Shown here: positions 5,186 through 24,382 of the stretch, piece by piece | Position numbering within the stretch: position 1 is the stretch's first letter | Layout of the letters: each line of letters starts with the position of its first letter | From: Chloroflexota bacterium | GTDB taxonomy: Bacteria; Chloroflexota; Limnocylindria; Limnocylindrales; CSP1-4 | Direction: 5' to 3' | Assembly (NCBI GenBank): GCA_021813655.1 | Contig: JAKAJU010000185.1 | Location: 1-49,373, forward strand | Length of the DNA: 49,373 nt | The notes under the pieces: generated by a model | Databases searched by the model: none | What the model was told of the DNA's origin: nothing | What the model saw: the letters and a program-made list of their open reading frames with translations, nothing else | Made by a program: the position numbers and the translations under genes

Positions 5186-6019
5186 TCAGCCGACCGCGTG
5201 GTTGAACTGGCCCCAGATCGCGGACGGGATCCATGCGAGGGGTTCGCCGCGTTGCATCCGCGGGGCGCGCCACGCCTCGGACCACCCGTCGGCGCGGAGG
5301 AGCGCGAGCCCCGTCTCGTTCGACGCGAGGGTCCCGGCGCGAACCCGGTGCCCTGGGCCGCCTGAGGCGAGGCGCGCCCTGAGGAGCGTCAGCGCGGCGG
5401 CGGCATCGGGCGCGATCGTCGCGCCGCCGCCCCACGGCGCCCGGACGCAGAACCCGGCGATCCGTCCGTCGTCCCGTGGGAGCGCCAGCCCTCCCGGGAT
5501 CTCGGCGAATGCCGCGATGAGGTGCGCGCGGTCCTCGCCGGTCGCAGCGGCGTCCAGGGCAGCGGCCATCTCGACGTCGGCGGCGGCGAACTGTCGGATC
5601 CCCTCGGGGACCGCGTCCCCCTCCGAGGAGGCGCGCTCGAACGTCACGTATTCGTCCACGACGTCGAAGCCCATCGTCTCGTACAGGAGGCGGCCCGCCG
5701 GCGTGGCGACGAGGACCAGCGTCCGGCAGCCGCGTGCCGCGAGATCCGCGCACACCACGTCGGTCAGCTCGCGCCCCAATCCGCGACGCCGGAGGCGCGG
5801 TGCGACCCAGATCGTCCCGACCCAGCCCGCGGATCCGTTTCGTGTCCCCACCCCCGTCCCCACGATCCCGTCGTCGTCCTCGGCGACGATCGTCCGGCAG
5901 GCGGGGTGGACCGTCGCGAACCCGAACCACGTCCGCCTGTCGCCCCAGTCGCTCGCGAGCAGAGCGGCCGCCGCCGCGTCCACGTCGTCGGGGAGCATCG
6001 GTCGGATTCGAGTGCTCAC
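5186..6019 (-). CDS. GNAT family N-acetyltransferase (probable two-domain)
   Basis: GTIWVAPRLRRRGLGRELTDVV acetyl-CoA binding motif; second GNAT-like C-terminal domain. Confidence 0.8.
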   Translation of the reverse strand: MSTRIRPMLPDDVDAAAAALLASDWGDRRTWFGFATVHPACRTIVAEDDDGIVGTGVGTRNGSAGWVGTIWVAPRLRRRGLGRELTDVVCADLAARGCRTLVLVATPAGRLLYETMGFDVVDEYVTFERASSEGDAVPEGIRQFAAADVEMAAALDAAATGEDRAHLIAAFAEIPGGLALPRDDGRIAGFCVRAPWGGGATIAPDAAAALTLLRARLASGGPGHRVRAGTLASNETGLALLRADGWSEAWRAPRMQRGEPLAWIPSAIWGQFNHAVG

Positions 6020-6150
6020 CGGGCAAGGGTACGCGGGGACTCACGGACGTGCCTCAACTCCAGGGATGCACCCGCGGGCACAACGGAGAGACCTCCCGGC
6101 GATCTCGTTTGGGGGCTGGCGCCTGTTCCGACCCGCTGCTATCATCCGCC

Positions 6151-6167
6151 GTGTTGACAGTCAACAC
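6151..6167. promoter_or_regulatory. Perfect palindromic operator GTGTTGAC-A-GTCAACAC
   Basis: 17-bp perfect inverted repeat 22 bp upstream of the GTG of the LLM gene; identical copy at 25214-25230 next to gntR. Confidence 0.8.
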
Positions 6168-6189
6168 GAGCGGCGGGAGGGAGTACTGC

Positions 6190-7239
6190 GTGTCGGACGG
6201 ACGGGCGCTGGAGTTCGGTGTCAACCTCAACAACCGCGAGCCGCTGATCGCGCCCGACTACGACATCCACCAGCTGCTCGACCTCTCCCAGAACGTCGAG
6301 GGCCTGGGCTTCGACTCCGTGTGGGTGGGTGACAGCCTCTTCTCCAAGCCCCGCTACGAGGCGATCGCACTGCTCTCGGCGATCTCGCAGCTGACGAGCC
6401 GGGTGAAGCTCGGGACGGCGTGCCTCGTCACGTCGCCGCGGAACCCGCTCTACCTCGCCCTCGAGTGGGCGACCCTCGACGTCCTGTCGGGCGGCCGCAC
6501 GGTGTTCGGGCCCTGCGCCGGCAACCCGGAGGTAGGGGTCCGCCGCGAGTTCGAGGCGCTCGGGCTCGACTTCGACAGGCGGTTCGCGATCTTCGAGGAA
6601 GGCCTCGGGATCCTGCGGACACTGTGGACCGAGGGGAAGGTCACCCACCACGGCGAGCAGTACACGTACGACGACGTCTCGTTCTTCTCCGGCACCGAGA
6701 TGGGACCGCTCATGCCCATCCAGAAGCCGCCGCCTTTCTGGATCGTCTCCAACCCGCGCCTCGTGACGAACGCTGCGGACGAGAAGATGGTCCGGACGAT
6801 GAAGAACGCGTGCCGGCGGGTCCTCAAGTACGGCGAGGGCTGGATGACGTGCTGCCGGGCGATGCATCCCGAGGAGCTGGTCGAGCAGCTCGGGTACTTC
6901 CGAGACGTGGCAACCGAGTCGGGCGACGACGCGGGCCGCCTCGTCGTGAGCTACCAGGTCACCCTGAACATCGGGGACTCGGAGGACGCGGCCCGAACCG
7001 CCTTCGGCGAGTACATCGGCAAGTACTACCCCGAGCTCTCGAAGGCGATGGACCTCTCGAACTGGGGGCCGGTGGGGACGCCCGACCAGATCATCGCGTG
7101 GTTCAGGACGTTCGCCGAGGCGGGCGTGGACCACTTCATCTGCCGGTTCGGCTCGCTCGACCAGTTCGGGCAGATCGACCGCTTCGCCCGCGACGTCGTG
7201 CCCGCCCTGCGCGAGCACGTCCGGGTCACAGTGAGGTAG
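6190..7239 (+). CDS. LLM class (luciferase-like) flavin-dependent oxidoreductase
   Basis: LEFGVNLNNREPLIAPDYDIHQLLDLSQNVEGLGFDSVWVGDSL... luciferase-like TIM barrel. First gene of the + operon behind the palindrome. Confidence 0.8.
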   Translation: MSDGRALEFGVNLNNREPLIAPDYDIHQLLDLSQNVEGLGFDSVWVGDSLFSKPRYEAIALLSAISQLTSRVKLGTACLVTSPRNPLYLALEWATLDVLSGGRTVFGPCAGNPEVGVRREFEALGLDFDRRFAIFEEGLGILRTLWTEGKVTHHGEQYTYDDVSFFSGTEMGPLMPIQKPPPFWIVSNPRLVTNAADEKMVRTMKNACRRVLKYGEGWMTCCRAMHPEELVEQLGYFRDVATESGDDAGRLVVSYQVTLNIGDSEDAARTAFGEYIGKYYPELSKAMDLSNWGPVGTPDQIIAWFRTFAEAGVDHFICRFGSLDQFGQIDRFARDVVPALREHVRVTVR

Positions 7240-7244
7240 GGACG

Positions 7245-8246
7245 ATGGCGACCGAGGAGAAGATCCGGCAGCACGCCGAGCTCATCGTAAACACGTGCTT
7301 CACCGTGGAGAAGGACGACGTCGTCACGATCATCACGGACGACAAGCACGCGTACCTCGCCCATGCGATCGCCGAGGTCGCCACGGAGCGCGAGGCATGG
7401 CCCGTGATCATGAACAACGAGATGCAGGTCAGGCGCGGCCTCGCGGACACGCTGTTCCCCATGGCCCCGCCGCAGAACCTGCACGACGCGATGCTCGCCG
7501 CCGACGAGATCATCATCGTCTGCAACCTCGAGTGGGCCAACCGCTTCGCGCACGTCAACGCCGTCAAGGAGTCGTGCGCGAACAACGTGAAGATCGCGTC
7601 GGTCGAGCCGGGCATGGGCGAGTGGGACATCACGGTCGACGACATCCTCATCTCGACGGACCGGGCGAAGAAGGCGATGGAGGCCCTCGAGGGCGCCACG
7701 GAGTGCCGCGTCACGGCGCCGTCCGGCACGGACGTCGTGGTGAACATCGAGGGCCGGCCGCCGCTCCAGGTCACCCCGCTCCGCCAGCGTGGCTGGATGA
7801 TGGGGCCGCTCCCGCTCTGGGCCGAGGTCGCCTACGCGGCGGTCGAGGACAAGACCGAGGGGATCATCGCGGTCGACGGGAACATGCTCGGGATCGGCGT
7901 GGACGTGGTGAGCAGCCCGATCTTCTGGACCGTCCGCAACGGACGCGTCGTGAAGATCGACGGCGAGCGGGACGCCAGGCGCCTCGCCGAGGTCGTCGAG
8001 GGCGTCCCCAACTGCGAGGTCATCGGCGAGTTTGCATTCGGGACCAGCCACAAGGCGCCCCTCGGCAGCCCGTCGGAGAAGGGTCGGATCGGGAACGTCC
8101 ACTTCGCGATGGGCGACAACAAGAACGCGTACCCGGGCGGCCAGAACGTCTGCCGGCTCCATCTCGACGGCGTAGTCCGGAACGCGACGCTGCAGGTGCT
8201 CGACACGGGTGTGTACATCTTCCGCGACGGGCAGTGGGCTCTCTAG
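7245..8246 (+). CDS. M29/AmpS-type metalloprotein (aminopeptidase T / NicX 2,5-dihydroxypyridine dioxygenase superfamily)
   Basis: C-terminal blocks IGEFAFGTSHKAPLG...GNVHFAMGDNKNAYPGGQNVCRLHLDGVVRNATLQVLDTG typical of the COG2309/M29-like superfamily. Confidence 0.7.
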   Translation: MATEEKIRQHAELIVNTCFTVEKDDVVTIITDDKHAYLAHAIAEVATEREAWPVIMNNEMQVRRGLADTLFPMAPPQNLHDAMLAADEIIIVCNLEWANRFAHVNAVKESCANNVKIASVEPGMGEWDITVDDILISTDRAKKAMEALEGATECRVTAPSGTDVVVNIEGRPPLQVTPLRQRGWMMGPLPLWAEVAYAAVEDKTEGIIAVDGNMLGIGVDVVSSPIFWTVRNGRVVKIDGERDARRLAEVVEGVPNCEVIGEFAFGTSHKAPLGSPSEKGRIGNVHFAMGDNKNAYPGGQNVCRLHLDGVVRNATLQVLDTGVYIFRDGQWAL

Positions 8247-8251
8247 AGGGC

Positions 8252-8629
8252 GTGCGCGTCGTCCCGCTCGAGGACGTTGCACCCGTCGACCTTCCGGGCG
8301 GCAGCTGGAGCCGCGTCATCCTCACCGGCGACCGTGTCGGGTCGACGACGGCGATGGGGTTCTCCAGCTTCGCACCGGGGACGACGACCGCGATGCTCTC
8401 GCACGCGACCGAGGAGCTCGCCTACGTCCTGACCGGACGTGGCGAGCTCCGGCTCCCGGATGCCGTCGTCCCGATTGCGGCCGGGTCTGCGATGTATGTC
8501 CCGGCCGGCGTCTGGCACGCGGTGGTCAACACCTCCGACGAGCCCGTCACCATGGTCTTCGCGTTCGCGCACCCGGACTACCCGCCGACCGATCGCCGGC
8601 CGGCGCCCCCCGTGAGAGACCTCCCGTGA
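8252..8629 (+). CDS. Cupin-domain protein
   Basis: LSHATEELAYVLTGRGELRLPDAVVPIAAGSAMYVPAGVWHAVVNTSDEP cupin motifs. Confidence 0.8.
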   Translation: MRVVPLEDVAPVDLPGGSWSRVILTGDRVGSTTAMGFSSFAPGTTTAMLSHATEELAYVLTGRGELRLPDAVVPIAAGSAMYVPAGVWHAVVNTSDEPVTMVFAFAHPDYPPTDRRPAPPVRDLP

Positions 8630-9333
8630 CCCCCGCCGAGCTGCGCGAGCAAGTCGCGATCGCGAGCCGCGTGGTCGCCCTCGAGGGATACGTCGACCTC
8701 ACTCTCGGGCATGTGAGCGCCAGGAACCCGGGTGACCGGACGGTCTGGATCAAGCGGAAGGGCCTGGCCCTCGACGAGGTGACGCCCGACGATGTCATCC
8801 CGCTCGACCTCGACGACCCGGAGGAGCTCTCGCGCCCCGGCCACCACCTCGAGGCGGTCATGCACACCGAGGTCTACCGCGCCCGCCCGGACGTCGGGTC
8901 GGTGATCCACGGCCATCCGCTGCACGGGACCGCGCTCGGCGCGACCGACACCCCGCTCCAGTACCTGACACATGACGCGGTGCTGTTCGCGGACGGGATC
9001 GGGCTCTACGACGAGGGACCGGCGCTCGTGACGACGGCCGCGCAGGGCCGGTCCGTCGCCGCGGCGCTCGGCGGGCGGCGCGCCGCCCTGCTCCGCAACC
9101 ACGGCGTCGTGATCGCCGGCGAAGACGTCCGGTGGGCGGTCCTCGCCGCGGTGACGCTCGAGCGCGCGATCCGTCTCCAGGCGCTCGTCTCCTCACTCGG
9201 GACCCCCCGGCCGATCTCCCAGCGAGCGGCCGAGGAGCTGTTTCCGAAGAAGTACCAGGAAGGCTTCATGTCCGAGTACTGGGCCGCGTGGGCTCGTCGT
9301 GTCGGGCCCCTCGACGGCGCGGAAGGCCGCTGA
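8626..9333 (+). CDS. Class II aldolase/adducin family protein; candidate 3-hydroxy-2-methylpyridine-4,5-dicarboxylate decarboxylase
   Basis: GHVSARNPG...HTEVYRARPDVGSVIHGHPLHGTALGAT...LLRNHGVVIAG class II aldolase motifs. Specific function inferred from context. Confidence 0.75.
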   Translation: MTPAELREQVAIASRVVALEGYVDLTLGHVSARNPGDRTVWIKRKGLALDEVTPDDVIPLDLDDPEELSRPGHHLEAVMHTEVYRARPDVGSVIHGHPLHGTALGATDTPLQYLTHDAVLFADGIGLYDEGPALVTTAAQGRSVAAALGGRRAALLRNHGVVIAGEDVRWAVLAAVTLERAIRLQALVSSLGTPRPISQRAAEELFPKKYQEGFMSEYWAAWARRVGPLDGAEGR

Positions 9334-9334
9334 C

Positions 9335-9802
9335 GTGCGCGTGCACCTGACCCTCAACGGCCGGCCGACAGAGCTCGACGTCGCGCCGTCCGACCTCCTC
9401 CTCGACGTCCTCCGGGACCGCCTGGGTCTCACCGGCGGGAAGCGGTCCTGCGACGTCCAGGTCTGCGGCGCGTGCACCGTTCTGGTGGACGGGGGACCGG
9501 TGAGCTCCTGCACGTACCTCGCCGCCGAGGCGCACGGCCGCCAGGTGATGACGATCGAAGGGTTCCGCGAGACGCCCGCGTTCGACCAGATCGCCGACGC
9601 GTTCGCTCGCCATGCGGCGCTCCAGTGCGGCTTCTGCACGACCGCCCTGGTGCTCACGACCCACGCCCTCCTCGAGGAGGGCGAACTCACCGACGAGGCC
9701 TCGATCCGCCACGGGCTTTCCGGGAACCTCTGCCGCTGCACGGGGTACCGGGCGATCCTCGAGGCGGTCGCGGACCTCGCGGGCGCGGAGGCGTCGGCGT
9801 GA
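9335..9802 (+). CDS. Molybdenum hydroxylase small (2x[2Fe-2S]) subunit
   Basis: DVQVCGACTVLVDG, ALQCGFCTTALVLT, GNLCRCTGY. Confidence 0.9.
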   Translation: MRVHLTLNGRPTELDVAPSDLLLDVLRDRLGLTGGKRSCDVQVCGACTVLVDGGPVSSCTYLAAEAHGRQVMTIEGFRETPAFDQIADAFARHAALQCGFCTTALVLTTHALLEEGELTDEASIRHGLSGNLCRCTGYRAILEAVADLAGAEASA

Positions 9803-12096
9803 CCGTCATCGACGTCAAGGGGCCGACCGTCGGCGCGGGCCAGGTCGGCCGGTCCATGCGCCGCGTCGACGCGGACGAGAAGCTCCGCGGCGAAGCCCAG
9901 TACGTCGGTGACATCGTCATCCCGGGGATGCTCCACGGGAAGGTCCTGCGGAGCCCCGTGCCGCGCGCGCGCATCGTGTCGATGGACACGGCCGCGGCCG
10001 CGACGATGCCCGGCGTCGTCGCGATCCTCACGGGCGACGACCTCCTCGACATCGACCCGTTCTGGGGTCACGCGATCAAGGACCGACCGATCGTCGCCAT
10101 TGGCATGGTCCGCTTCGTCGGCGAGCCCGTGGCCGCGGTGGCCGCCGTCGACGAGACGACCGCGGAGGCCGCGGTGAAGGCGATCGTCGTCGAGTACGAG
10201 GATCTGCCGGTCGTCGGGACGCTCGACGAGGCGCTGGCGCCCGACGCACCCCTCGTCCACGACGGGCCGACCCGACCCGGGCTCTTCCACGGCCTCGGGA
10301 CGCTGCCGGAGCGCGACGGCAACGTCTGCTACCGGTACAGGATCGGCACCGACGAGGTGGACCCGATCTTTGAGACCGCGGAGGTCGTCGTCGAGGGGAC
10401 GTACGAGTTCCCCGGCGTCTACCAGTACGCGATGGAGACGCACGGCGTCGTGGCGCAGGTCGACGGGACCGGGATCACCCTATGGGCGACGTGCCAGCAC
10501 CCGTTCCTCGTCCGCGCCGAGATCGCGGCGCTCTTCGACGTCCCCCTCGGCAAGGTCCGGATCCACGTCCCGTACCTCGGTGGCGGCTTCGGGAGCAAGT
10601 CCTACACGAAGATGGAGCCGATCACCGTCGCGCTCGCGCGCAAGGCGGGCCGGCCGGTCCGGATCGTCAACCGGGTCGACGAATCGATGGTGACCACGCG
10701 TCGCCACAACGCGCGGACCTGGATGCGGACCGCCGCGACGAGCGACGGTCGCCTCCTCGCGCGGGAGGCGCGCGTCTGGTTCGACACCGGCGCGTACGCG
10801 GATAACGGACCGCGTGTCACCGCGACCGGCGGCGACGCGGCGCCGGGCCCCTACCGCTGGTCGGCGATGCGCGTGGACGCCCTGTGCGTCTACACGAACA
10901 CCGCGCCGTCGGGCTCCTACCGGGCCTTCGGTGCCTCGCACCTGCAGTGGGTCGGCGAGCTCCAGGTCGACGAGGTCGCCAGGACCGTCGGGATGGACCC
11001 GGTCGAGATCCGCCGGCTCAACCTCGCGAGGCCGGGCGACGAGGTCCGCCGCGGCGGCAAGCCGCTCGACGCGGACCTCGTCGGCGACGTCGAGAAGGTC
11101 GCGGACGCGCTGGGCTGGGATCGGCCGCGCGACGCGGACACCGGCCGCGGGCTCTCGGTGGGGCTCCTCGCGGCCGGCGCTCACCCGGTCTCGAGCGCGG
11201 TCGTCCGCATGGAAACCGACGGCGACGTAGTCGTGCTCGTCGGGTCCACGGAGATGGGACAGGGCCAGCGCACGGCGATGGCGCAGATCGCCGCCGAGGT
11301 GCTCGCGATGCCCGCGGAGCGGGTGCGCTGCCAGGGGACGGACACGCGGTTCACGCCGTACGATCGCTCCACCGGCGCCAGCCGCTCCACGACGCTCGCG
11401 GGACTCGCCGTCCAGAAGGCCGCCGCCGAGGTCCGCGAGGACCTGCTCGACATCGCCGCGCTCGTCTGGCCCCACCCCGTCGCGTCGATCGAACTGCGCG
11501 ACGGGGCCGCCCGGTGCGGCGGGGAGAGCCGGACCTATCCAGAGCTCATCGCCCGGCGCTTCGGCCTCTCCGGCGGCCAGCTGACCGGCGAGGCGGACGT
11601 CCACCCACAGGGGACCGGCTCGTATGCCGAGGGACCGGTCTTCTGGGAGGTCTGCATCGCCGCCGCGGAGGTGCACGTGGATCGGGCGACCGGCCAGGTC
11701 ACCGTCCGGCGGACGGCGACCATCGCCGACGTCGGCAAGGCGATCAACCCGCAGCTGGTCGAGCGACAGGACGAGGGAGCGACGATGCAGGGCATCGGCA
11801 ACGCCCTCTTCGAGGAGATGGTCTACGCCGACGGGATCCTCCTCAACGACAACCTGCTCGAGTACCGCGTCCCCACCATCGAGGATCTCCCGGCCCACTC
11901 GACGTGCGTCATCGTCGAGAACGGGGACGGGCCGGGGCCATTCGGCGCCAAAGGATGTGGCGAGGGAGCCTTCGCCGGGATCATCGGGGCGATCGCGACG
12001 GCGGTAGCCGACGCCGGCGTGCCCGTTCGAGAGCTGCCGCTCACGCCGGAGCGTGTGTGGCGAAGCATCCAGGAGATGCAGGAGGATCATCGATGA
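9799..12096 (+). CDS. Molybdenum hydroxylase large (molybdopterin) subunit, xanthine dehydrogenase family
   Basis: YVGDIVIPGMLHGKVLRSP, ETHGVVAQVDG, LGGGFGSKSYTK, SYRAFGASHLQW, GAKGCGEGAFAG. GTG start overlapping the small subunit. Confidence 0.9.
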   Translation: MTVIDVKGPTVGAGQVGRSMRRVDADEKLRGEAQYVGDIVIPGMLHGKVLRSPVPRARIVSMDTAAAATMPGVVAILTGDDLLDIDPFWGHAIKDRPIVAIGMVRFVGEPVAAVAAVDETTAEAAVKAIVVEYEDLPVVGTLDEALAPDAPLVHDGPTRPGLFHGLGTLPERDGNVCYRYRIGTDEVDPIFETAEVVVEGTYEFPGVYQYAMETHGVVAQVDGTGITLWATCQHPFLVRAEIAALFDVPLGKVRIHVPYLGGGFGSKSYTKMEPITVALARKAGRPVRIVNRVDESMVTTRRHNARTWMRTAATSDGRLLAREARVWFDTGAYADNGPRVTATGGDAAPGPYRWSAMRVDALCVYTNTAPSGSYRAFGASHLQWVGELQVDEVARTVGMDPVEIRRLNLARPGDEVRRGGKPLDADLVGDVEKVADALGWDRPRDADTGRGLSVGLLAAGAHPVSSAVVRMETDGDVVVLVGSTEMGQGQRTAMAQIAAEVLAMPAERVRCQGTDTRFTPYDRSTGASRSTTLAGLAVQKAAAEVREDLLDIAALVWPHPVASIELRDGAARCGGESRTYPELIARRFGLSGGQLTGEADVHPQGTGSYAEGPVFWEVCIAAAEVHVDRATGQVTVRRTATIADVGKAINPQLVERQDEGATMQGIGNALFEEMVYADGILLNDNLLEYRVPTIEDLPAHSTCVIVENGDGPGPFGAKGCGEGAFAGIIGAIATAVADAGVPVRELPLTPERVWRSIQEMQEDHR

Positions 12097-13013
12097 CCAC
12101 GTTCAGCAAGGTCGCGATCATGGGCACCGGGACGATGGGGCCCGGCATGGGCGCCGTCTGTGCGCGCGCGGGCATGCAGGTCGCCATGTACGACGTGAGC
12201 GCGGACGCGATCGAGCGCGCGAAGGCCGGCTACGACATGGCCTGGGGCGTCCTCGATCGCCTCGAGGCCCCTGTCGTCCCCGGCGGGTCGGTCCGCTACG
12301 CGTCCGACGTGGCAGGGGCCCTCGACGGCGCCGAGTTCGTCATGGAGGCGATCCCGGAGAAGCTCGACCTCAAGAAGTCGGAGTTCGCGAAGTACGAGCA
12401 GCACGTCGGCCCTCACGTGATCCTCGCCTCGAACACCTCGGGCATCCCGGCGACGAAGATCGCGGCCGACCTCGCGCATCCCGAACGCGTCGTCGTCATG
12501 CACTGGTCCAACCCGCCGCACCTCATCCCGATGATCGAGATCGTGCCGGGCGAGAAGACCTCCCAGGCCACCATCGACGGCACGAAGGCCGTGATCGACG
12601 AGGTCGGCTACTACCCGTGCCTCCTGAAGAAGGAGGTCCCCGGGTTCGTCGAGAACCGCGTCCTCTACGCCATCATGCGCGAGTGCCTGGCGCTCGTGGA
12701 CGAGGGCGTCGTGGACCTCGATGAGCTCGACCTCAACGTGAAGTGGGGGATCGGGTACAAGCTCGCCGTCATCCCGCCGATGCACCTCCTCGACATGGCC
12801 GGGATGGACATCTACAAGGCGGTCGCGGGCTACCTCAACCGCGACCTGTCGAACGCATCCGAGGTGAGCCCCACGATCAACGCCCTCGTCGAGAAGGGCC
12901 GGCTCGGGATGAAGACCAAGGGCGGCCTCTTCGACTACACGGACGAGGAGATCGGAGCGCTCCGCTCGGAGCGTGCGAAGAAGCTCGTCGCCGTCCGCAA
13001 GGCGATCAGCTAG
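12093..13013 (+). CDS. 3-hydroxyacyl-CoA-dehydrogenase-fold enzyme; predicted 5-formyl-3-hydroxy-2-methylpyridine-4-carboxylate 5-dehydrogenase
   Basis: GTGTMGPGM Rossmann motif; MHWSNPPHLIPMIEIVPGEKT, PGFVENRVLYAIMRE, WGIGYKLAVIPPMHLLDMAGMDIYKAV, ERAKKLVAVRK match blocks recalled from the M. loti enzyme. Confidence 0.8.
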   Translation: MTTFSKVAIMGTGTMGPGMGAVCARAGMQVAMYDVSADAIERAKAGYDMAWGVLDRLEAPVVPGGSVRYASDVAGALDGAEFVMEAIPEKLDLKKSEFAKYEQHVGPHVILASNTSGIPATKIAADLAHPERVVVMHWSNPPHLIPMIEIVPGEKTSQATIDGTKAVIDEVGYYPCLLKKEVPGFVENRVLYAIMRECLALVDEGVVDLDELDLNVKWGIGYKLAVIPPMHLLDMAGMDIYKAVAGYLNRDLSNASEVSPTINALVEKGRLGMKTKGGLFDYTDEEIGALRSERAKKLVAVRKAIS

Positions 13014-13060
13014 CGGCCGAGGCCGGCGCGTCCATCACCTGCGAGAGGGAGGTCCGGATC

Positions 13061-13810
13061 GTGAAGATCTACCTGCTCGACCTCGGGTCGCTCGTCATCG
13101 ACCGTTCCGACGTGCTCTGGCACATCGACGTCGGCACGCCGGTCCGATTCCCCGTGTACGGGGTCTACGTCGACCATCCCGAAGGGAAGTTCATCTTCGA
13201 CACCGGGTACGACCTCGATCACGTGAACAGGGTCCTGCCCTTCGAGCTGCCCGAGCAGACCCCGGAGCAGACGGTCCCCGCGCAGCTCGCCAAGTGCGGC
13301 GTGAAGCCCGAGGAGGTCGACTTCGTCATCAACTCGCATTTCCACTTCGACCATGTCGGTGGCAACAAGTACCTCACGAACGCGACTCTGCTGACGAGCA
13401 AGCACGAGCTGCGCTCGTGCCTGGTGCCGGAGCCGTTCGAACGCCTCGGCTACTCCGACCTGAGCTTCTACCAGCGCGGAGCGACGAAGGTCGAGTACCT
13501 CGAGGGCGACACCGAGATCGCGAAGGGGCTGACGCTCTTCGAGACCCCCGGCCACACGATCGCCCACTACTCGCTCCTTGCGGAGCCCGAGGGCAGGCGC
13601 CCGATGATCTTCACCGGCGACGCCGCGTACTCCTACGAGACGCTCGACCGGATGATCGTCGGCGGGTTCCATCTCGACCCCGTCCACTCGATCAGCGCCC
13701 TGAAGCGCATCAAGTCGATGGCCAAGAAGCACGACGCGGAGGTCTTCGTCTCGCACGACATGGAACCGTGGCTCACGTGGAAGCGCGCACCGGAGTTCTA
13801 CGGCGCCTGA
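13061..13810 (+). CDS. Metallo-beta-lactamase-fold lactonase; predicted 4-pyridoxolactonase
   Basis: NSHFHFDHVGGNKY zinc motif; VRFPVYGVYVDHPEGKFIFDTGYDLDHVNRVLPFE and FERLGYSDLSFY match blocks recalled from M. loti 4-pyridoxolactonase. Confidence 0.8.
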   Translation: MKIYLLDLGSLVIDRSDVLWHIDVGTPVRFPVYGVYVDHPEGKFIFDTGYDLDHVNRVLPFELPEQTPEQTVPAQLAKCGVKPEEVDFVINSHFHFDHVGGNKYLTNATLLTSKHELRSCLVPEPFERLGYSDLSFYQRGATKVEYLEGDTEIAKGLTLFETPGHTIAHYSLLAEPEGRRPMIFTGDAAYSYETLDRMIVGGFHLDPVHSISALKRIKSMAKKHDAEVFVSHDMEPWLTWKRAPEFYGA

Positions 13811-13885
13811 GGCACCCCACCACACCACGCTCCGGCCTCGGCCGTGCCCCGTCCGTGGCCGGCGTCCAACCAGGGAGACGTTGAG

Positions 13886-14620
13886 ATGAAGCTCGAGGGA
13901 CGCGTCGCGATCGTGACAGGTGCGGCACAGGGCATTGGACAGGCGATCGCCGGGAAGCTCGCCGCGGAGGGCGCAACGGTCGTCGTCGCGGACATCAACG
14001 GCGCGGGGGCGGCGAAGGTCGCGGCGGCGATCCCCGGCGCCTCCGCGTACACGATCGACATCGCGGACGAGGCCCAGGTGAAGGGTCTCGTCGCCGACAC
14101 GGTCGCGAAGCATGGGAAGATCGACGTCCTCGTGAACGACGCCGCGATCGTGCCGTACAAGGAATGGGACGACATCGACTTCGCCGAGTGGCGCCGGATC
14201 ATGGCCGTCAACCTCGACGGCACCTTCCTCATGTGCCGCCACGTGAGCGACGAGATGCGCACGAAGGGCTACGGCCGCATCGTCAACATCTGCTCGAACG
14301 TCATCGTCGCCGGGACCCCGAACCTCGCCCACTACGCCGCATCCAAGGGCGGCGTCTTCGGACTCACCCGCGTCCTCGCGACCGAGCTCGGCAAGTACGG
14401 CATCACGGCGAACCAGGTCGCCCCCGGCCTGACCGCGAGCGAGGGCGTCATGGCCGGCAAGTTCGTCGAGTCGTTCGACTTCGTCCAAATGCTCCAGTCG
14501 ATCCCGCGCCGCGGCGTCCCGGCGGACATCGCCCCGGCCGTCGCGTTCCTCGCGTCCGAGGAGTCGGGCTGGATCACCGGGCAGATGCTCGTCGCCGACG
14601 GCGGGCACACGCGCCACTAG
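13886..14620 (+). CDS. SDR family dehydrogenase; predicted pyridoxal 4-dehydrogenase
   Basis: TGAAQGIG, AIVPYKEWDDIDFAEWRRIMAVNLDGTF, AGTPNLAHYAASKGGVFGLTRVLATELGKYGITAN, SFDFVQMLQSI, WITGQMLVADGGHTRH match blocks recalled from M. loti pyridoxal 4-dehydrogenase. Confidence 0.8.
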   Translation: MKLEGRVAIVTGAAQGIGQAIAGKLAAEGATVVVADINGAGAAKVAAAIPGASAYTIDIADEAQVKGLVADTVAKHGKIDVLVNDAAIVPYKEWDDIDFAEWRRIMAVNLDGTFLMCRHVSDEMRTKGYGRIVNICSNVIVAGTPNLAHYAASKGGVFGLTRVLATELGKYGITANQVAPGLTASEGVMAGKFVESFDFVQMLQSIPRRGVPADIAPAVAFLASEESGWITGQMLVADGGHTRH

Positions 14621-14651
14621 CCCCGCGGCCGCGGCCCCATCGGAGACCCCC

Positions 14652-15053
14652 ATGGCTGACTTCCCCGTCAAGCGGATCGGGGCGATCTTCGCGGTCGCCG
14701 ACGTCGACCGCTCGGCCGCCTTCTATCGCGACCACTTCGGGTTCGCGGTCGAGGCTCTGTTCGAGGGCCCCGCCTACGCGATCCTCGTGCGAGACGGCGT
14801 GCGGCTCTCGCTCGCGGAGCAGGGCCACCCGGCGTCCGACCTGCCCGGCTACGTGATGACGGCGCAGGCCGATCCGTCGGAGGCTGCCGCCGCCCTCGTC
14901 CTCGAGGTCGACGACGCGATGGCCGTCCATGCCGCCCTCCTCGCCGATGGCGTCGTATCGGTCGCGCCGCCGTACGCGCCGCCGTGGGGCGGCTGTCGGT
15001 TCTTCGTCGCGGACCCGGACCGGCACCTGATCGAAGTCGAGCAGACGGCATGA
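14652..15053 (+). CDS. VOC (glyoxalase/bleomycin resistance/dioxygenase) superfamily protein
   Basis: IFAVADVDRSAAFYRDHFGF...CRFFVADPDRHLIEVEQ. Confidence 0.85.
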   Translation: MADFPVKRIGAIFAVADVDRSAAFYRDHFGFAVEALFEGPAYAILVRDGVRLSLAEQGHPASDLPGYVMTAQADPSEAAAALVLEVDDAMAVHAALLADGVVSVAPPYAPPWGGCRFFVADPDRHLIEVEQTA

Positions 15054-16081
15054 GGGCCGTCGCCTCGCTGGGTCCCGAGAACGTCCAGCTCATCGACGCG
15101 CCGGAACCGGTGATCGAAGCGCCGACCGACGCCATCGTCCGCGTCTCGGCCACCGCGCTGTGCGGCGCGGACCTCTTCCCGTACCACGGTCACGTGCCCG
15201 GGTTCCTGGACGGCACGATCCTCGGCCACGAGTTCGTGGGCGTCGTGGAGTCGGTCGGCTCCACCGTGGCCACGGTGGAGCCCGGCGACCGGGTCGTGTC
15301 CAACTCCACCATCTCGTGCGGCCGGTGCACCGCATGCCGCGCGGGCCGCTCATCGCAGTGCCCGGACCGGGCGCTGTTCGGCTATTCCGGCGTCTACAAG
15401 CAGCTCCACGGCGGGCAGGCCGACCTCGTGCGGGTGCCGGTCGCCGAGCGCGCCCTCAAGGCCATCCCGGACGGCGTGACCGACGAGCAGGCCCTGTTCG
15501 TCGCGGACATGCTGCCCACCGGCTACTCGGGCTTCCGCCGCGCCGACCTCGCCTCGGGTGACGTGGCGGTCGTGGTCGGCTGCGGCACCGTCGGCCTGAT
15601 GGCGATCCTGTTCGCCGCCCGGGTCGCCCGCACGGTCATCGCCGTGGACGAGATCGCCGAGCGACGCGCTCTCGCGGAGCGGTTCGGCGCCACCGCGGTC
15701 TCCCCGGACGGGGCAGCCGGCGCCATCTCGGCTGCCACGGACGGCCTGGGCGCGGATGGCGTGATCGAGGCGGCCGGCTCCCCGGGTGCCCTGGCCGCCG
15801 CGATCGACTTCGCCCGGGGCCAGGGCACGATCTCGGTGATCGGCGCGCACTTCGAGACGGAGTTCCCGCTGGACATGGGCCTGATGTTCGAGAGGGAGCT
15901 CACGCTCCGCGTGACATGGGGTCACGGGTTCGACGATCGTGACAGGATGGTGGCGATGCTGGCCGCGGGTGTGATCGACCCCACGCCGGTCATCAGCCAT
16001 CGCCTTCCGCTCGCTGACGCGGCCGAGGCCTATCGCATGTTCGCCGCGCGGGAGGCGACGAAGGTCGTCCTCCGCCCCTAG
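15050..16081 (+). CDS. Zinc-dependent alcohol dehydrogenase (MDR family)
   Basis: LCGADLFPYHGHVPGF, GHEFVGVV, structural zinc cysteines CGRCTACRAGRSSQC, VVVGCGTVGLMA. ATGA overlap with the VOC gene. Confidence 0.85.
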   Translation: MRAVASLGPENVQLIDAPEPVIEAPTDAIVRVSATALCGADLFPYHGHVPGFLDGTILGHEFVGVVESVGSTVATVEPGDRVVSNSTISCGRCTACRAGRSSQCPDRALFGYSGVYKQLHGGQADLVRVPVAERALKAIPDGVTDEQALFVADMLPTGYSGFRRADLASGDVAVVVGCGTVGLMAILFAARVARTVIAVDEIAERRALAERFGATAVSPDGAAGAISAATDGLGADGVIEAAGSPGALAAAIDFARGQGTISVIGAHFETEFPLDMGLMFERELTLRVTWGHGFDDRDRMVAMLAAGVIDPTPVISHRLPLADAAEAYRMFAAREATKVVLRP

Positions 16082-16695: not shown

Positions 16696-17577
16696 TCAGG
16701 CCGTCGCTGCGGCCGCGCGCGCGGCCGTCTCGCGGAGGCAGCGGCCGACGAGCACCGAGACCAGATCGCGCTTGTACTCGGCGGACCCGTTGGCGTCCTC
16801 TTCCGGCTCGGCGGCCGCGGCGGCGAGGGCCCCGGCGGCGTGGACGACGGCGTCCTCCGCGAGGGCGAGGTCGGCGCCGACGAGGTCGCGCTCCGCTTCC
16901 GGGACCCGGACCGGGACCGCGCCCACGGAGCCCACAGCGATGCGCGCCTCGGCGATATGTCCGGCGTCCCCGCGGACGAGACAGGCGATCGTGGCCGCGG
17001 GCCGCTCGTGGAAGGAGAACTTCACGTGGGTCATCGCTGCCCCGGCCCCGAGAGCGGGGACGCGGATCTCCACGATCAGCTCGCCGGGCTCCAGAGCCGT
17101 TTCGTACGGCCCACGCACGAAGTCGGCCATCGCGACGCTGCGTCGCGCCCCGCCCATCCCGAGGAGCAGCGTCGCCTCGGCCGCGAGGAGGAAGGTCGCG
17201 GGGTCCGAGTGAGGATCCGCGAAGGCGAGGTTCCCGCCGAGCGAGCCCACGTTCCGGACACGGACGTTCGCGACGCGCCGCTCCATCTCCACGAGGGCCG
17301 GCCATCCGGCGCGGACGAGCGGGGAGCGCTCGATGGCGCGGTGCGTGACAGCCCCACCGATGACGAGCGTCCCGCCCTCGGCGTCGAGCCGCTGGAGCTC
17401 CGGGATCCGCTTCACGTCCACGAGGTGCGCGGGCTCGGCGAATCCGAGCTTCATGAGCAGAAGGAGCTCGGTCCCGCCGGAGTAGATGACGGCCTCGTCA
17501 CCGAGCTCGGCGAGGAGCCCCGTCGCTTCCGCGACGGACGTCGCGGAGTGCAGCTCGAACGGGGTGAGGGTCGTCAC
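16696..17577 (-). CDS. Molybdenum hydroxylase FAD-binding medium subunit (CoxM type)
   Basis: ELHSATSVAEATGLLAELGDEAVIYSGGTELLLLMKLG, NVRVRNVGSLGGNLAFADPHSDPATFLLA FAD-binding motifs. Confidence 0.9.
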   Translation of the reverse strand: MTTLTPFELHSATSVAEATGLLAELGDEAVIYSGGTELLLLMKLGFAEPAHLVDVKRIPELQRLDAEGGTLVIGGAVTHRAIERSPLVRAGWPALVEMERRVANVRVRNVGSLGGNLAFADPHSDPATFLLAAEATLLLGMGGARRSVAMADFVRGPYETALEPGELIVEIRVPALGAGAAMTHVKFSFHERPAATIACLVRGDAGHIAEARIAVGSVGAVPVRVPEAERDLVGADLALAEDAVVHAAGALAAAAAEPEEDANGSAEYKRDLVSVLVGRCLRETAARAAAATA

Positions 17578-18776
17578 GCGCTGAGCCCTGCGGCGGCGAG
17601 CGAAACCTCGGCTTCATCCGCGCTATCAGAGAGCCACGCGAGCGCTGCCTCGACGCCGGCCCCCACGTCCACCCGGGCGCCGAGGTCGAGGAGGGAGCGA
17701 CCGAGCGCGGCGAGGCCGACGATCGGGTACATCGGGCGGGCGGCGGCGCCCATGTGGCCGATCCGGATGATCGGCCCCGCGCCCTGGCCGCCGGAGAGCT
17801 GGACTCCGTACTTCGCACGGGCATGGTCGCGGAGCTGGAGGTCGGTGATCTCGTCCGGGACGCGGATCGCCGTCACGCACGGCGCGGCGATCTCCTCGCG
17901 CGCCGGCCAGATCGACAGGCCCATGCCCCTGACGCCCGCCCGACAGGCTGCGGCGACGTGCGCATGGCGGGCGATCGAGGCGTCCAGGCCTTCTTCGAGG
18001 AGGAGCGCAGCGGCTGCGTCCACCCCGTGGAGATCGGAGACCGACGGCGTGAACGGGAACTTGCCGGCGCCGTGCCACTGCTCCTTCCAGTCGAGGAGCG
18101 AGAGGAAGCTGCCGCGCGGGGCATCCGGGTTCTTCGCGATGAGCGCCCACGCCTCGTCGCTGATCGCCATGAGGGACATCCCTGGCGGTCCGCCGAGGCA
18201 CTTCTGGGGACCCGCGACCAGGAGGTCGAGCTGCCACTCGTCCGGACGCAGCTCGACTCCCCCGAACGCGCTCACGCAGTCGACGATCGTCACGACGCCC
18301 CGCGACCGGCAGATCGGCCCGATCTCGCGGACCGGGTTGAGCGTCCCGGACGGCGTCTCCGAGTGGACGACGGCGACCACCTCCACCTCGGGGTGCGCGT
18401 CGAGGTAGGCCGCGACGGCGTCCGGGTCGATCGCTTCGTCGTACGTGACCTCGATCTCGCGGAGGTCCGCGCCCATCGCCGTGAGCCAGTATCCGAAGTA
18501 CTTCCCGAAGATCCCGGAGACGAGGTTCAGGCATGCCATGCCCGGGCGGACGATCGCGCGGGCGGCGGCCTCGAGGCCGAGCACGGCCTCACCCTGCATG
18601 AGGATGATCTCGTGGCTCTGCGTGCCGTAGATTGCGCCGATCCGGTGCTCCGCGGCGCGGAAGCGCTCGATGAAGGCCGGGTCGTAGTGGTAGAGGATCG
18701 GCGAACCGAGCGCCGCGAGCGTCTCCGGGGGGACCGAGATGGGCCCGGCGGCGAGCGTGAAATCAGCGGGTCGCAT
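17574..18776 (-). CDS. Class V aminotransferase; predicted pyridoxamine-pyruvate aminotransferase
   Basis: LAAGPISVPPETLAALGSPILYHYDPAF, GEAVLGLEAAAR, AGPQKCLGGPPG (PLP lysine), PFTPSVSDLHGVD, RIGHMGAAARPMYPI match blocks recalled from M. loti PPAT rather than generic AGXT. Confidence 0.75.
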   Translation of the reverse strand: MRPADFTLAAGPISVPPETLAALGSPILYHYDPAFIERFRAAEHRIGAIYGTQSHEIILMQGEAVLGLEAAARAIVRPGMACLNLVSGIFGKYFGYWLTAMGADLREIEVTYDEAIDPDAVAAYLDAHPEVEVVAVVHSETPSGTLNPVREIGPICRSRGVVTIVDCVSAFGGVELRPDEWQLDLLVAGPQKCLGGPPGMSLMAISDEAWALIAKNPDAPRGSFLSLLDWKEQWHGAGKFPFTPSVSDLHGVDAAAALLLEEGLDASIARHAHVAAACRAGVRGMGLSIWPAREEIAAPCVTAIRVPDEITDLQLRDHARAKYGVQLSGGQGAGPIIRIGHMGAAARPMYPIVGLAALGRSLLDLGARVDVGAGVEAALAWLSDSADEAEVSLAAAGLSA

Positions 18777-19365
18777 CGTCGGCTCCTTTCGTTCTCTCCG
18801 CGCCGTCGCCGCGACCGCCGAGGCGCCGCACCGACCCGCTCACCTTTGCCCCCACCACCGAGGCGAGGAGCGAGATTCCCCCGAGCGGCTGCGTCGCAGC
18901 AGCGGCGGCATCGCCTTCGGGCGATGCGAGCCGCGCCTCGATGCATCGTGCGGCGTCGGCGATCAGCTTCCGCGAGACGTCGACGATGACGCCCTGGCCC
19001 ATCCTGGCCGCCTTCCCGCGGACGTCGAGATCCGTCGTCATCCTGACCCGTGTCACGTCGCCCTCGGGGAGGACTTCCATGAGGGTGGCGACTTTCGCGG
19101 TGTCCGCGCCGCCGGACGCCTTCCCTTCGCCCTCGATCCGGGCCGTCCGCGCCACGGGGTCACGACCGGCGATCCGGACCTTCCCGTCATACACGAACTT
19201 CATCGGGCCGAGCTTGACCGAGATGCGCCCGGAGTACGACCCGTCCGCCGCGAGCTCGCCGATCTCGCCGCCGGGGACGCACGGGGCGATCCGCCGCAGG
19301 TCGAGGAGCAGCGCGTAGGCGCGGTCGGGGTCACCGGCGATGACGAACTCATCGATGAGCCGCAT
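18763..19365 (-). CDS. coxG: CoxG family SRPBCC protein
   Basis: FVIAGDPDRAYALLLDLRRIAPCVPGGEI...YSGRISVKLGPMKFVYDGKVRI...ATLMEVLPEGDVTRVRMTTDLDVRGKAARMGQGVI. Confidence 0.85.
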   Translation of the reverse strand: MRLIDEFVIAGDPDRAYALLLDLRRIAPCVPGGEIGELAADGSYSGRISVKLGPMKFVYDGKVRIAGRDPVARTARIEGEGKASGGADTAKVATLMEVLPEGDVTRVRMTTDLDVRGKAARMGQGVIVDVSRKLIADAARCIEARLASPEGDAAAAATQPLGGISLLASVVGAKVSGSVRRLGGRGDGAERTKGADDATR

Positions 19366-19368
19366 CGG

Positions 19369-20304
19369 TCAGCGGCTCCCGCGGACGTACGGCAGCCCCA
19401 GCGCGGCCGGCAGCCGGGCCTCGCGGGCGAAGACGACGAGGACGACCATCACGGAGACGAACGGGAGCATCTGGACGACATCGACCGGGATCGAGATGCC
19501 GACCAGCTGGAGCGCGGTCGCGATCGAGAGCGACATCCCGAAGAGGAGCGCTCCGAGGACGGCGCCCCACGGATGCCCCCGGCCCATCATCGCGATGACG
19601 ATCGCGATGAAGCCCATCCCGCCGGTGAGGAAGGGAACGAAGGTCCCAGCGCCCACGATCGACATGTAGGCGCCGCCGATGCCGGCGAAGGCGCCGCACG
19701 CCATCTCCGCGACCGTCCGGACGCGGACGACGGAGACGCCCGCTGCGTCGAGGCTGTCAGGGCGCTCGCCCGCCGCGCGCAGGTCGAGGCCGGCGGTCGT
19801 GCGGCGAAAGATCCATCCGACGAGCCCGACGACGATCAGGGCCATGTAGACGGGCGCCGGCTGGCTGAAGAGGCTCCCTCCGAGGACCGGGATCTGGCTG
19901 AGGACGGGGATCGCGAAGACGTCGATGGCGTCGAGCCGAGGGTAGGACTGGCCGAAGAACGCGCCGTGGAGGAGGCTCGTGAGACCTTCCGCGCAGAGGA
20001 TGATCGAGATCCCCACGACGATCTGGTCGAGCCCGAGGCGGACGCAGAAGACGACCATCACGAGCGAGACGAGGAGGCCGGAGATCGCGCCGACGGTCAG
20101 GCCGACCCAGGCGTTCCCGGTCGCGAGCGCGCCCAGGAAGCCGCAGAAGGCCCCGGTGAGCATCATCCCCTCGAGCCCGACGTTGAGGATGCCGGACTGC
20201 TCGGCGATCGTCTCGCCGAGCGAGGCGAAGAGGAGCGGGATCCCCGCGAGGATGCCTCCCGCGATGAGGGCGGTGAGGAAGGTCGGGGTCAGGAGGTCGG
20301 ACAT
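19369..20304 (-). CDS. ABC transporter permease (BMP/nucleoside-type)
   Basis: LFASLGETIAEQSGILNVGLEGMMLTGAFCGF signature of simple-sugar/nucleoside ABC permeases. Confidence 0.9.
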   Translation of the reverse strand: MSDLLTPTFLTALIAGGILAGIPLLFASLGETIAEQSGILNVGLEGMMLTGAFCGFLGALATGNAWVGLTVGAISGLLVSLVMVVFCVRLGLDQIVVGISIILCAEGLTSLLHGAFFGQSYPRLDAIDVFAIPVLSQIPVLGGSLFSQPAPVYMALIVVGLVGWIFRRTTAGLDLRAAGERPDSLDAAGVSVVRVRTVAEMACGAFAGIGGAYMSIVGAGTFVPFLTGGMGFIAIVIAMMGRGHPWGAVLGALLFGMSLSIATALQLVGISIPVDVVQMLPFVSVMVVLVVFAREARLPAALGLPYVRGSR

Positions 20305-20305
20305 C

Positions 20306-21421
20306 CTAGGCGCTCGCCTTCCGCCGCCGGGGAACGATCCGTTCACCCCGCGCGCGCTTGTCGCTGAAGTACTGGGTGGCGACCATGAAGATGAGGATGA
20401 GCCCCACCACGAGGAGGAGGAAGTCGCTGGGCAGACCCGCCTGACGGGCCGCGTACTCCCCGCCGATCGAGACGACGCTGAAGAACGCCGCGAACGGGAT
20501 GAGCGCGAGCGCATTGAGTCGGGCGAGGAAGACGAGCGGGATGACCTTGAGGCCGTAGGCCGGGTTCCAGTCGGCCCGCATGTACCCGAAGATCCCGAGG
20601 ATGTCGACGGCAGCGGCGAGGCCGATGAGCGCGCCGCTGATGACGAACGCGAGGACGATGAGGCGCGGGACGTTGATCCCGAGATGGACGGCGGCCCGCG
20701 GGTTGGCGCCGAGGACGTCGAGCCGCGTCCCGAACGACGTCCTCGTGAGCGCCAGGTGGACGATCACGACGACGACGAGGGCGATGATCACGCCGACGTG
20801 CACCCGCGTCACGGGCAGGTCGAGCAGCATCATCCCCTTCGGGATGACGGCGGTCTGTGGGACCATCGACGTGCCCTTGAACGGGCCCTTCACGAAGAGA
20901 TTCGCGAGGCCGACGCCGATGAACGTCATCATCAGCGTCGTGATGATCTCGTTCATCCCGTAGATGGCCTTGAGCAACGCCGGGATGAGCGTCCACCCGG
21001 CGCCCACGGCCATCGCGACGAGCATGAGCACCACCCACCCGAGAGGGGCGGGGACCGTGTCCAGGACGATCGGACCGAGGCCGGCCACCATCGCCGCGGC
21101 GAGGAGATACTGGCCCTCGCTGCCCAGGTTCCACAGGGTCGCACGGAAGACGACGATAAGCCCGACCCCGATGAGGAGAATCGGGGCCATGCGCGTGATG
21201 CTGTCCTGGAGGCCGGAGGGGCGGAGGAGCCCGGCGGTGACGATGTCCTCGTAGAACGCGATGGGGTCGCGGCCCAGGACGAGGAGGATCAGGCCGCACG
21301 CGAGGAACGCGAGGATGATCGGGCCGATCGATCGGATCAGGCTGTCCGCGATGCTCGCGAGTCGGCCGGGCGCCGTGGGCTCCGCGAGGACGGCCGTTTG
21401 GGTCGTCGCAGGCGCGGTCAT
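20306..21421 (-). CDS. ABC transporter permease (BMP/nucleoside-type)
   Basis: Multi-TM; FRATLWNLGSEGQYLLAAAMVAGLG, TTLMMTFIGVGLANLFVKGPFK. Confidence 0.9.
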   Translation of the reverse strand: MTAPATTQTAVLAEPTAPGRLASIADSLIRSIGPIILAFLACGLILLVLGRDPIAFYEDIVTAGLLRPSGLQDSITRMAPILLIGVGLIVVFRATLWNLGSEGQYLLAAAMVAGLGPIVLDTVPAPLGWVVLMLVAMAVGAGWTLIPALLKAIYGMNEIITTLMMTFIGVGLANLFVKGPFKGTSMVPQTAVIPKGMMLLDLPVTRVHVGVIIALVVVVIVHLALTRTSFGTRLDVLGANPRAAVHLGINVPRLIVLAFVISGALIGLAAAVDILGIFGYMRADWNPAYGLKVIPLVFLARLNALALIPFAAFFSVVSIGGEYAARQAGLPSDFLLLVVGLILIFMVATQYFSDKRARGERIVPRRRKASA

Positions 21422-23043
21422 GCCGCCTGCGCTCCCACGATGAGCTCGCCGATCCGCGTCTCCGCGCCGGGTCCGTTGTCCACGATGCCCGCGATCTTTC
21501 CCTCGAAGAGGACCGCGACGCGGTCCGACAGGTCGATGAGCTCGTCGAGGTCCGTTGAGATGACGACCGTTGCCACCCCGCGGCCGGCGAGCTCACGGAT
21601 GCGCTCGCGTACCATCGCGATCGTCCGGACGTCGAGGCCGTGGGTCGGCTTGCTGAAGACGACGACCCTCGGCTGGAACGAGAGCTCGCGCGCGAGCAGC
21701 GCCTTCTGGATGTTCCCGCCGGAGAGCTTCCCGATCCGAGTCTCCGACGACGGGGTCCGGATGTCGAACTGCGCGATGAGTTCGCGGGCGGTCGCGTTGA
21801 TCGCGACGCGGTCGATCGTCCCACGGCGCCAGAACGGCTTGTCCCCGATCCGCTTGAGGACCAGGTTCATTCCGACGGCGAACGGACGCACCACGCCCTC
21901 GCCGAGGCGGTCGTCCGTCACGTAGCGCAGGCCGAGCCGCTGTCGGGACGAGACCGTGAGCTTCACGATCGAGGCGGCCGCCAGCCGGATGTCGCCCGCG
22001 GACGGACGCCGCTGCCCGGCAATCACCTCGGCGAGCGCACGCTGGCCGTTCCCGTCGACGCCGGCGATCCCGAGGATCTCGCCCCCGCGGACCGCGAGGC
22101 TCACGTCGCTGACGCCGTACTGGCCGTGGTGGCCGGGCGCCGAGACGCCGACGAGCTCCAGGAGCGGCGTCTCCGACATCGTCCGTCGGACGCGGTGTCC
22201 CTCGAGGTCTTCGCGCAGCTCGGCAACGTCGGCGACCTCATCGGCCTCCTCGCCGAACATCGTGGCGACGATCCGACGCTGGAGCTGCTGCGGCGTGGAC
22301 GAGCGGAGGATCTCCGGCCCGATCGTGCCGACCACGCGCCCCTGCTTGAGGATCGTCACGCGGTCGCCGATCGCGATTGCCTCGTGGAGCTTGTGCGTGA
22401 TGAAGATGATCGCGAGGCCGCTCGTCTTGAGTTCGACGAGGACCTTCTGGAGCTCTGCGATCCCCTGGGGCGTGAGCATCGAGGTGGGCTCGTCGAGGAT
22501 CAGCACCTTTGAACCCTTCCACAGGGCCTTGATGATCTCCACGTGCTGCTGCTGGCCCAGCGCGAGCGAGCCGGCGCGCGCATCCGCGTCGACGGTGATC
22601 CCGAGCGTGGACGCGAGGTCGGCGATCCGGGTCCTCGCGGTCTTCTCGTCGAGGATGATGCCCTTGTTCGACCCGAGCATGAGGTTCTCGAGGACCGTCA
22701 GCGTCGGGATGAGGCTCAGGTGCTGGTGGACCATGCCGATCCCGAGGTCGCGGCCGCGGCGCGGTGAATCGATGCGCACGTCGCTCCCGTCGACCCGGAT
22801 TCGGCCCTCGTCCGGCCGATAGAGGCCGGAGAGGATGCTCATCAGCGTCGACTTCCCGGCCCCGTTCTCGCCCAGGAGGCAGAGGACCTCGCCGGGCAAG
22901 ACGGAGAGGCTGATGTGGTCGTTCGCGATCACACCGGGGAAGACCTTGGTGATGTCGATGAGTTCGACCGCGGGGACGGGTGTCCCCGCGGTCGAACTCA
23001 GGGTCGCCGGCGCCGGGGCGGGAGCGTCAGCCATGACGCGCAT
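21418..23043 (-). CDS. ABC transporter ATP-binding protein (two nucleotide-binding domains)
   Basis: LLGENGAGKSTLMSILSGLY, LALGQQQHVEIIKALWKGSKVLILDEPTSMLTP, LSGGNIQKALLARE. Confidence 0.95.
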   Translation of the reverse strand: MRVMADAPAPAPATLSSTAGTPVPAVELIDITKVFPGVIANDHISLSVLPGEVLCLLGENGAGKSTLMSILSGLYRPDEGRIRVDGSDVRIDSPRRGRDLGIGMVHQHLSLIPTLTVLENLMLGSNKGIILDEKTARTRIADLASTLGITVDADARAGSLALGQQQHVEIIKALWKGSKVLILDEPTSMLTPQGIAELQKVLVELKTSGLAIIFITHKLHEAIAIGDRVTILKQGRVVGTIGPEILRSSTPQQLQRRIVATMFGEEADEVADVAELREDLEGHRVRRTMSETPLLELVGVSAPGHHGQYGVSDVSLAVRGGEILGIAGVDGNGQRALAEVIAGQRRPSAGDIRLAAASIVKLTVSSRQRLGLRYVTDDRLGEGVVRPFAVGMNLVLKRIGDKPFWRRGTIDRVAINATARELIAQFDIRTPSSETRIGKLSGGNIQKALLARELSFQPRVVVFSKPTHGLDVRTIAMVRERIRELAGRGVATVVISTDLDELIDLSDRVAVLFEGKIAGIVDNGPGAETRIGELIVGAQAA

Positions 23044-24267: not shown

Positions 24268-24382
24268 GTCGTCTCCTCCTCCGATTCCCAAGGGGTTCGC
24301 CCGGATCGCGCCGTTCAGGCGCGCCGCGACGTCCCGGCTCGTCGCTCGTGGACCGTGTTCTCTCCCTGATCCAGCACCGCCC

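Follow-up and report, generated by a model that had tools for sequence, protein, structure and literature searches.

Breakdown of B6 by the Mesorhizobium loti-type pathway opens the ring with an MHPC oxygenase-type flavoenzyme. NicX is a 2,5-dihydroxypyridine ring-cleaving dioxygenase with an H318-x-D320 pair, His265, and Ser302 (PMC7910607). Transcriptional regulators with an FCD domain bind their ligand together with a metal, and one of them, CitO, is an activator responding to citrate (PMC4746285). FCD repressors such as Atu1419 (VanR) have palindromic operators at the promoters of catabolic loci, including that of their own gene (PMC7797058). The usual operator of the FadR subfamily, TKGT-N2/3-ACMA, is common but not universal, and the MocR-type regulators PdxR and PtsJ, which serve B6 synthesis and salvage, have operators of other kinds (PMC4494728).

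The window (i.e., the whole 49,373-nucleotide stretch that was analysed) resembles and departs from each of these systems. With the Mesorhizobium loti-type pathway it shares a pyridoxolactonase, a pyridoxal 4-dehydrogenase, a pyridoxamine-pyruvate aminotransferase (PPAT)-like protein, a protein like 5-formyl-3-hydroxy-2-methylpyridine-4-carboxylate (FHMPC) dehydrogenase, and a decarboxylase related to Mlr6791. However, its cluster genes include none for an enzyme of the MHPC oxygenase type; they encode instead a NicX-fold protein, an enzyme of the LLM class, and a molybdenum hydroxylase. Its regulator has the same wHTH and FCD architecture, predicted fold, and metal-site histidines as the repressors Atu1419 and TM0439. 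In contrast to theirs, its putative operator is 15-17 bp long (TGTTGAC-N-GTCAACA) with AC-N-GT at the centre rather than the usual GT-N2/3-AC, and a single cluster carries a site at each end, the two being separated by 19 kb. PdxR and PtsJ have in common with it a GntR-type DNA-binding domain (the matches are N-terminal only and weak) and a connection to B6 physiology, but it lacks their aminotransferase-like domain and its expected target is breakdown rather than synthesis. No such FCD regulator of B6 breakdown was found in the open-access literature searched, a scope outside which most subscription papers fall, and a verbatim search of papers for the operator letters returned only unrelated texts.

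A palindrome at both ends of a B6 catabolism cluster

The sequence GTGTTGACAGTCAACAC is present at 6151-6167 and 25214-25230, with no further copy in the 3.0-Mb assembly. It is a 17-bp palindrome of structure GTGTTGAC-A-GTCAACAC, and both window copies are exact. Their starts are separated by 19,063 bp, matching the two copies about 19 kb apart described in the initial annotation. The same annotation considered sharing by chance to be unlikely, and this was borne out by the two copies genome-wide and by shuffling the window, wherein none of 100 shuffles contained a match at ≤ 3 mismatches. We also searched the window's own genome (3,003,016 bases in 200 contigs, 93.7% complete) for the palindrome's inner 15 bp at ≤ 2 mismatches. 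This returned the two window copies and a single 2-mismatch match (C46:1727) on a 5.4-kb contig, inside an open frame with high GC3 and with no B6 genes on its 3-kb stretch. Viral contigs were searched and nothing was found. Matches with one mismatch in relatives without the cluster were judged to be chance because those stretches held no B6 catabolism genes and nearly all the matches lay within open frames; in one such relative the stretch carried a 42% match to an ABC ATPase.

The plus-strand operon (6190-16081) begins with the LLM gene and ends with an alcohol dehydrogenase gene, and the minus-strand operon (25138-16696) begins with an amidohydrolase gene and ends with that of the molybdenum hydroxylase FAD subunit. 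Since the two operons converge, they form one B6 catabolism cluster of 19 kb that is bounded on either side by a palindrome. We classed the cluster as such by its equivalogs of pyridoxolactonase and pyridoxal 4-dehydrogenase together with its B6 ABC transporter, for which NF047928 alone of the four transporter families fell below its cut-off. The features, in order along the window, are:

6137-6145, plus strand: predicted extended -10 element TGCTATCAT in the promoter of the LLM operon, with transcription predicted to begin at ~6152, within the operator
6151-6167, no strand: putative operator copy 1 (the palindrome of 17 bp), situated where transcription of the enzyme (LLM) operon is predicted to start; kept there in 5 relatives
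6190-7239, plus: LLM-class flavin/F420 oxidoreductase (bacterial luciferase-like), first gene (PF00296, E 8e-42)
7245-8246, plus: M29/NicX-fold protein, candidate pyridine-ring-cleaving dioxygenase (PF02073 weak; pLDDT 93; NicX 7cn3, TM 0.77)
8249-8629, plus: cupin-domain protein (PF07883)
8626-9333, plus: class II aldolase/decarboxylase family, candidate 3-hydroxy-2-methylpyridine-4,5-dicarboxylate decarboxylase (PF00596; the Mlr6791 structure 2z7b is among the matches, E 5e-21, but is not the best)
9341-9802, plus: molybdenum hydroxylase 2Fe-2S subunit (XdhC-type NCBIfam matches)
9799-12096, plus: molybdenum hydroxylase large subunit (XdhA-type NCBIfam matches)
12093-13013, plus: FHMPC dehydrogenase-like protein (NF042925 the best family, E 8e-122, 406 bits, not reaching the cut-off of 500)
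13061-13810, plus: 4-pyridoxolactonase (NF047925, 378 bits, above the cut-off of 325)
13886-14620, plus: pyridoxal 4-dehydrogenase, SDR type (NF047923, 370 bits, above the cut-off of 325)
14652-15053, plus: VOC/glyoxalase-family protein (PF00903)
15044-16081, plus: zinc alcohol dehydrogenase family; the enzyme operon ends with this gene
16696-17577, minus: molybdenum hydroxylase FAD-binding subunit; the transporter operon ends with this gene
17574-18776, minus: PPAT-like protein (NF046070 the best family, E 5e-137, below cut-off; best solved structure 2z9u, E 6e-114)
18763-19365, minus: CoxG/SRPBCC protein (PF06240)
19369-20307, minus: B6 ABC transporter permease 1 (NF047928, 417 bits, below the cut-off of 465)
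20306-21421, minus: B6 ABC transporter permease 2 (NF047929, above cut-off)
21418-23043, minus: B6 ABC transporter ATPase (NF047930, above cut-off)
23086-24465 (open frame), minus: B6 ABC transporter substrate-binding protein, BMP family (NF047927, above cut-off; PF02608); its true start is probably downstream of the open frame's 5' end
24383-25138, minus: amidohydrolase, first gene of the transporter operon (PF04909; same position in relatives)
25199-25204, minus: predicted -10 box CATACT of the transporter operon (CATACT or GATACT, 17/18 bp from TTGACT, in 6/6 family promoters)
25214-25230, no strand: putative operator copy 2, holding the transporter operon -35 box TTGACT (25222-25227, minus strand) and upstream of gntR
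25312-26082, plus: gntR, a GntR/FCD transcriptional regulator and the likely palindrome binder (PF00392 and PF07729 above cut-offs; fold match); alternative GTG start at 25282

The gntR gene and the transporter/PPAT operon are transcribed away from each other, and the second palindrome lies in the gap between them. The initial annotation had not mentioned this neighbouring gene. Reading outward, gatA/gatB-type genes lie 3' of gntR.

Promoter geometry at the two palindromes

The palindrome had been placed 22 bp before the GTG of the first plus-strand gene and 5 bp after a TATCAT box. Both distances are correct, with bases 6168-6189 intervening before the GTG at 6190 and five bases following the box at 6140-6145. 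Because TATCAT is preceded by TGC, it reads as an extended -10 element (TGCTATCAT). All promoter boxes reported here are consensus readings, and the starts are predicted rather than mapped. Each of the six LLM promoters has a -10-like box that precedes the operator by a few bases (TATCAT in G000 and G014, TAGGAT in G020 and G039, and TATGAT in G030 and G107). With such a box just 5' of it, the operator covers the predicted LLM transcription start, an overlap that had been suggested from the window.

The transporter-side promoters, in contrast to the LLM promoters, hold the operator at the -35 box: all six read TTGACT-N17/18-CATACT or GATACT, wherein TTGACT is part of the operator. This overlap is new relative to the initial annotation. 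On the gntR side, the family promoters showed no conserved -10 box that could pair with TTGACA. Taken as read, the boxes predict that repression would work in two ways, by covering the -35 box at the transporter operon and by covering the transcription start at the LLM operon. A GNAT acetyltransferase gene (5186-6019, minus strand) is divergent from the LLM operon, and operator copy 1 lies 131 bp upstream of it.

The regulator belongs to the FCD family

The product of gntR has an N-terminal GntR winged HTH (PF00392, 70 bits against a cut-off of 27) and a C-terminal FCD domain (PF07729, 101.5 bits against a cut-off of 24.3), and its predicted model matches structures of FCD regulators. In the ortholog alignment, H136, H180, and H202 are invariant and N132 is nearly so. 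The spacing of the histidines is 44/22, versus 40/22 in TM0439 (PMC4746285), and the four residues fit a predicted FCD metal site. The window operator misses TKGT-N2/3-ACMA and reads TTGA-CAG-TCAA in register. As operators of the subfamily are also known in other forms (PMC4494728), this departure does not place the protein outside the FCD family.

Operator and regulator co-occur within the family

Close orthologs of the regulator, defined as E < 1e-70 and having 57-74% identity before the next matches drop to ~40%, were present in five of 106 other genomes of the family (G014, G020, G030, G039, and G107). The same five were those with this type of operator at the B6 cluster. Among 12 family genomes checked, the LLM and pyridoxolactonase genes were present in these five and absent from the seven others. 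Three of the five (G014, G020, and G039) have the cluster layout of the window with one operator per end. The cluster is fragmented in G030, with operators before gntR/BMP, before the amidohydrolase gene, and before the LLM gene, while G107 has an operator at LLM and a gntR broken by a contig end. When five LLM promoters were compared, the operator was 93% identical and the flanks were 32% (upstream) and 31% (downstream) identical.

Footprinting in relatives had been proposed as a check on the palindrome, and it showed that relatives from other genera retain both sites, at either end of the syntenic cluster. The comparison supports the initial annotation's view that a single regulon spans both operons.

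Orthologous regulators beyond the family and rewiring of the regulon

A genome scan with the regulator alignment revealed at least 28 loci at 46-72% identity, some of which are same-family records, followed by a drop to 37%. Orthologs were sampled by two peptide patterns, making this a partial survey. Most of the ortholog loci listed sit among the same genes, in Actinomycetota (many of them Thermoleophilia), Chloroflexota, Dormiibacterota, and a few others. A likely regulator and its putative operator are thus assigned to a B6-breakdown cluster that many uncultured members of Chloroflexota and Actinomycetota possess. We scanned these loci with a weight matrix trained on the family's sites alone. 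Upstream of gntR, 11 of the 23 non-family ortholog loci listed had a site scoring above every control, whereas the 26 non-orthologous FCD genes had no such site (Fisher p = 5e-5). Some loci that lack a site before gntR have gntR inside an operon that is itself headed by a site. In L068 this is the transporter operon, with the site before the BMP gene, and in L071 the site stands before an NCS1-type permease gene. Several ortholog loci, L067, L076, L077, and L079 among them, had no convincing site near gntR. The Acidimicrobiaceae-type clusters in L067 and L076 each contain two regulator paralogs, with no convincing operators of this type nearby.

Across lineages the operator pattern is roughly TGNTRAC-N-GTYANCA. 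Overlapping operator-like matches recur every 7 bp in L064, L068, L072, L075, L081, and L082 (e.g., L064 9878-9908, L068 4949-4979, L081 1720-1743, and L082 5086-5109). This spacing suggests arrays of three or more half-sites, to which more than one dimer may bind.

At most non-family loci listed, gntR is directly before LLM, and often a single operator separates it from a divergently transcribed transporter operon. The window's five-member family forms a clade (100/99) within the non-family loci of a tree whose drawn root is a midpoint only. L081 and L082 have a gap between gntR and LLM and an extra site before LLM. By parsimony on a partial sample, the two-site layout of the window probably derived from an ancestral single divergent operator. 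We infer that the separation of LLM from gntR and the second operator before LLM are derived, a point absent from the initial annotation. Such a history would amount to regulon rewiring, wherein an enzyme operon parted from gntR carries its own operator.

Proposed regulation and its alternatives

The palindrome is very probably the operator of the GntR/FCD repressor encoded by gntR (25312-26079), through which B6 uptake and breakdown would be controlled together. We infer binding and repression by this protein, as well as the identity of its ligand. While B6 breakdown products are absent, a dimer (or dimers) would occupy both palindromes, covering the -35 box of the transporter/PPAT operon and the start of the LLM operon just past its extended -10 box. 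The same protein would thereby block two operons by two geometries, and autoregulation at its own gene is probable. The ligand would be derived from B6, the likeliest kind being an acid of the pathway, for example 4-pyridoxate, sitting in the metal site of the FCD domain, and ligand-bound regulator would leave the DNA to induce uptake and breakdown jointly. Looping between the two operators was considered, and nothing supported it over 19 kb.

The regulator could instead be an activator with the palindromes as activation sites, since FCD activators such as CitO exist, which responds to citrate (PMC4746285). However, the LLM site covers the predicted start and so follows the -10 box, and the transporter-operon site contains the -35 box in 6/6 promoters. 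Both placements suit occlusion rather than recruitment, making activation improbable. We consider it just as improbable that a different, unlinked regulator binds the palindrome and gntR is merely a neighbour. The motif is off the FadR-subfamily consensus, some ortholog loci lack a site near gntR, and adjacency with co-occurrence leaves room for another binder. Nevertheless, the sites track gntR across the family and stand upstream of it in several distant lineages, and none of the 26 non-orthologous FCD genes scored as high as the best 11 ortholog sites.

The palindrome might also act as RNA, in the form of a 5' leader hairpin or attenuator, given its predicted place at the extreme 5' end of the LLM operon transcript. 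This is very improbable because the transporter-operon copy is upstream of the -10 box, and thus outside that operon's transcript, and because only one base would be left to form the loop between the arms. That the shared 17-mer arose by coincidence or is a dispersed repeat found no support and is hardly credible in view of the empty shuffles, the two copies genome-wide, a place kept in five relatives, and a site conserved while its flanks diverge.

Candidates for a ring-cleaving enzyme and a B6 transporter

As an operator of the GntR/FCD repressor, the palindrome would belong to a regulatory circuit of an ordinary kind with an interesting evolutionary layout, and the enzyme set that it guards is less ordinary. 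In particular, the NicX-like candidate ring-cleaving enzyme stands out more than the operator does. No PDB entry matched this M29-like protein (7245-8246) by sequence, so we used structure prediction. The confident predicted structure (pLDDT 93) had NicX (7cn3) as its nearest solved fold, with a TM of 0.77 and 17% identity, followed by M29 peptidases. Its H306-x-D308 is invariant, like H318-x-D320 of NicX, and this pair is the only part of the NicX iron-ligand set that was seen to be conserved.

None of the cluster genes encodes a flavin hydroxylase of the MHPC oxygenase type, and matches to FAD_binding_3 in the 93.7%-complete genome were short or partial, none being full-length. The absence of a full-length match of this type makes a different B6 ring-opening route plausible, and the modelled protein is a candidate ring-cleaving enzyme of a B6 pathway without MHPC oxygenase. 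More tentatively, and with slightly less than even confidence, we suggest an undescribed branch of B6 breakdown in Chloroflexota and Actinomycetota, which the regulon would control. In this branch the pyridine ring would be opened not by MHPC oxygenase but by a NicX-fold enzyme together with a molybdenum hydroxylase (and the LLM enzyme), and the regulator would be a new FCD protein having TGTTGAC half-site operators with 7-bp repeats in some lineages.

The operator might also be used as a marker to find B6 transporters. On the L070 and L071 stretches (Dormiibacterota-type clusters), where a B6 ABC transporter of the window type was not seen, an operator-like site is followed by an NCS1-type permease gene and then gntR (L070 8291; L071 8292-9772, with PF02133 tested in L071). 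The L071 permease is a candidate B6 transporter of another family.
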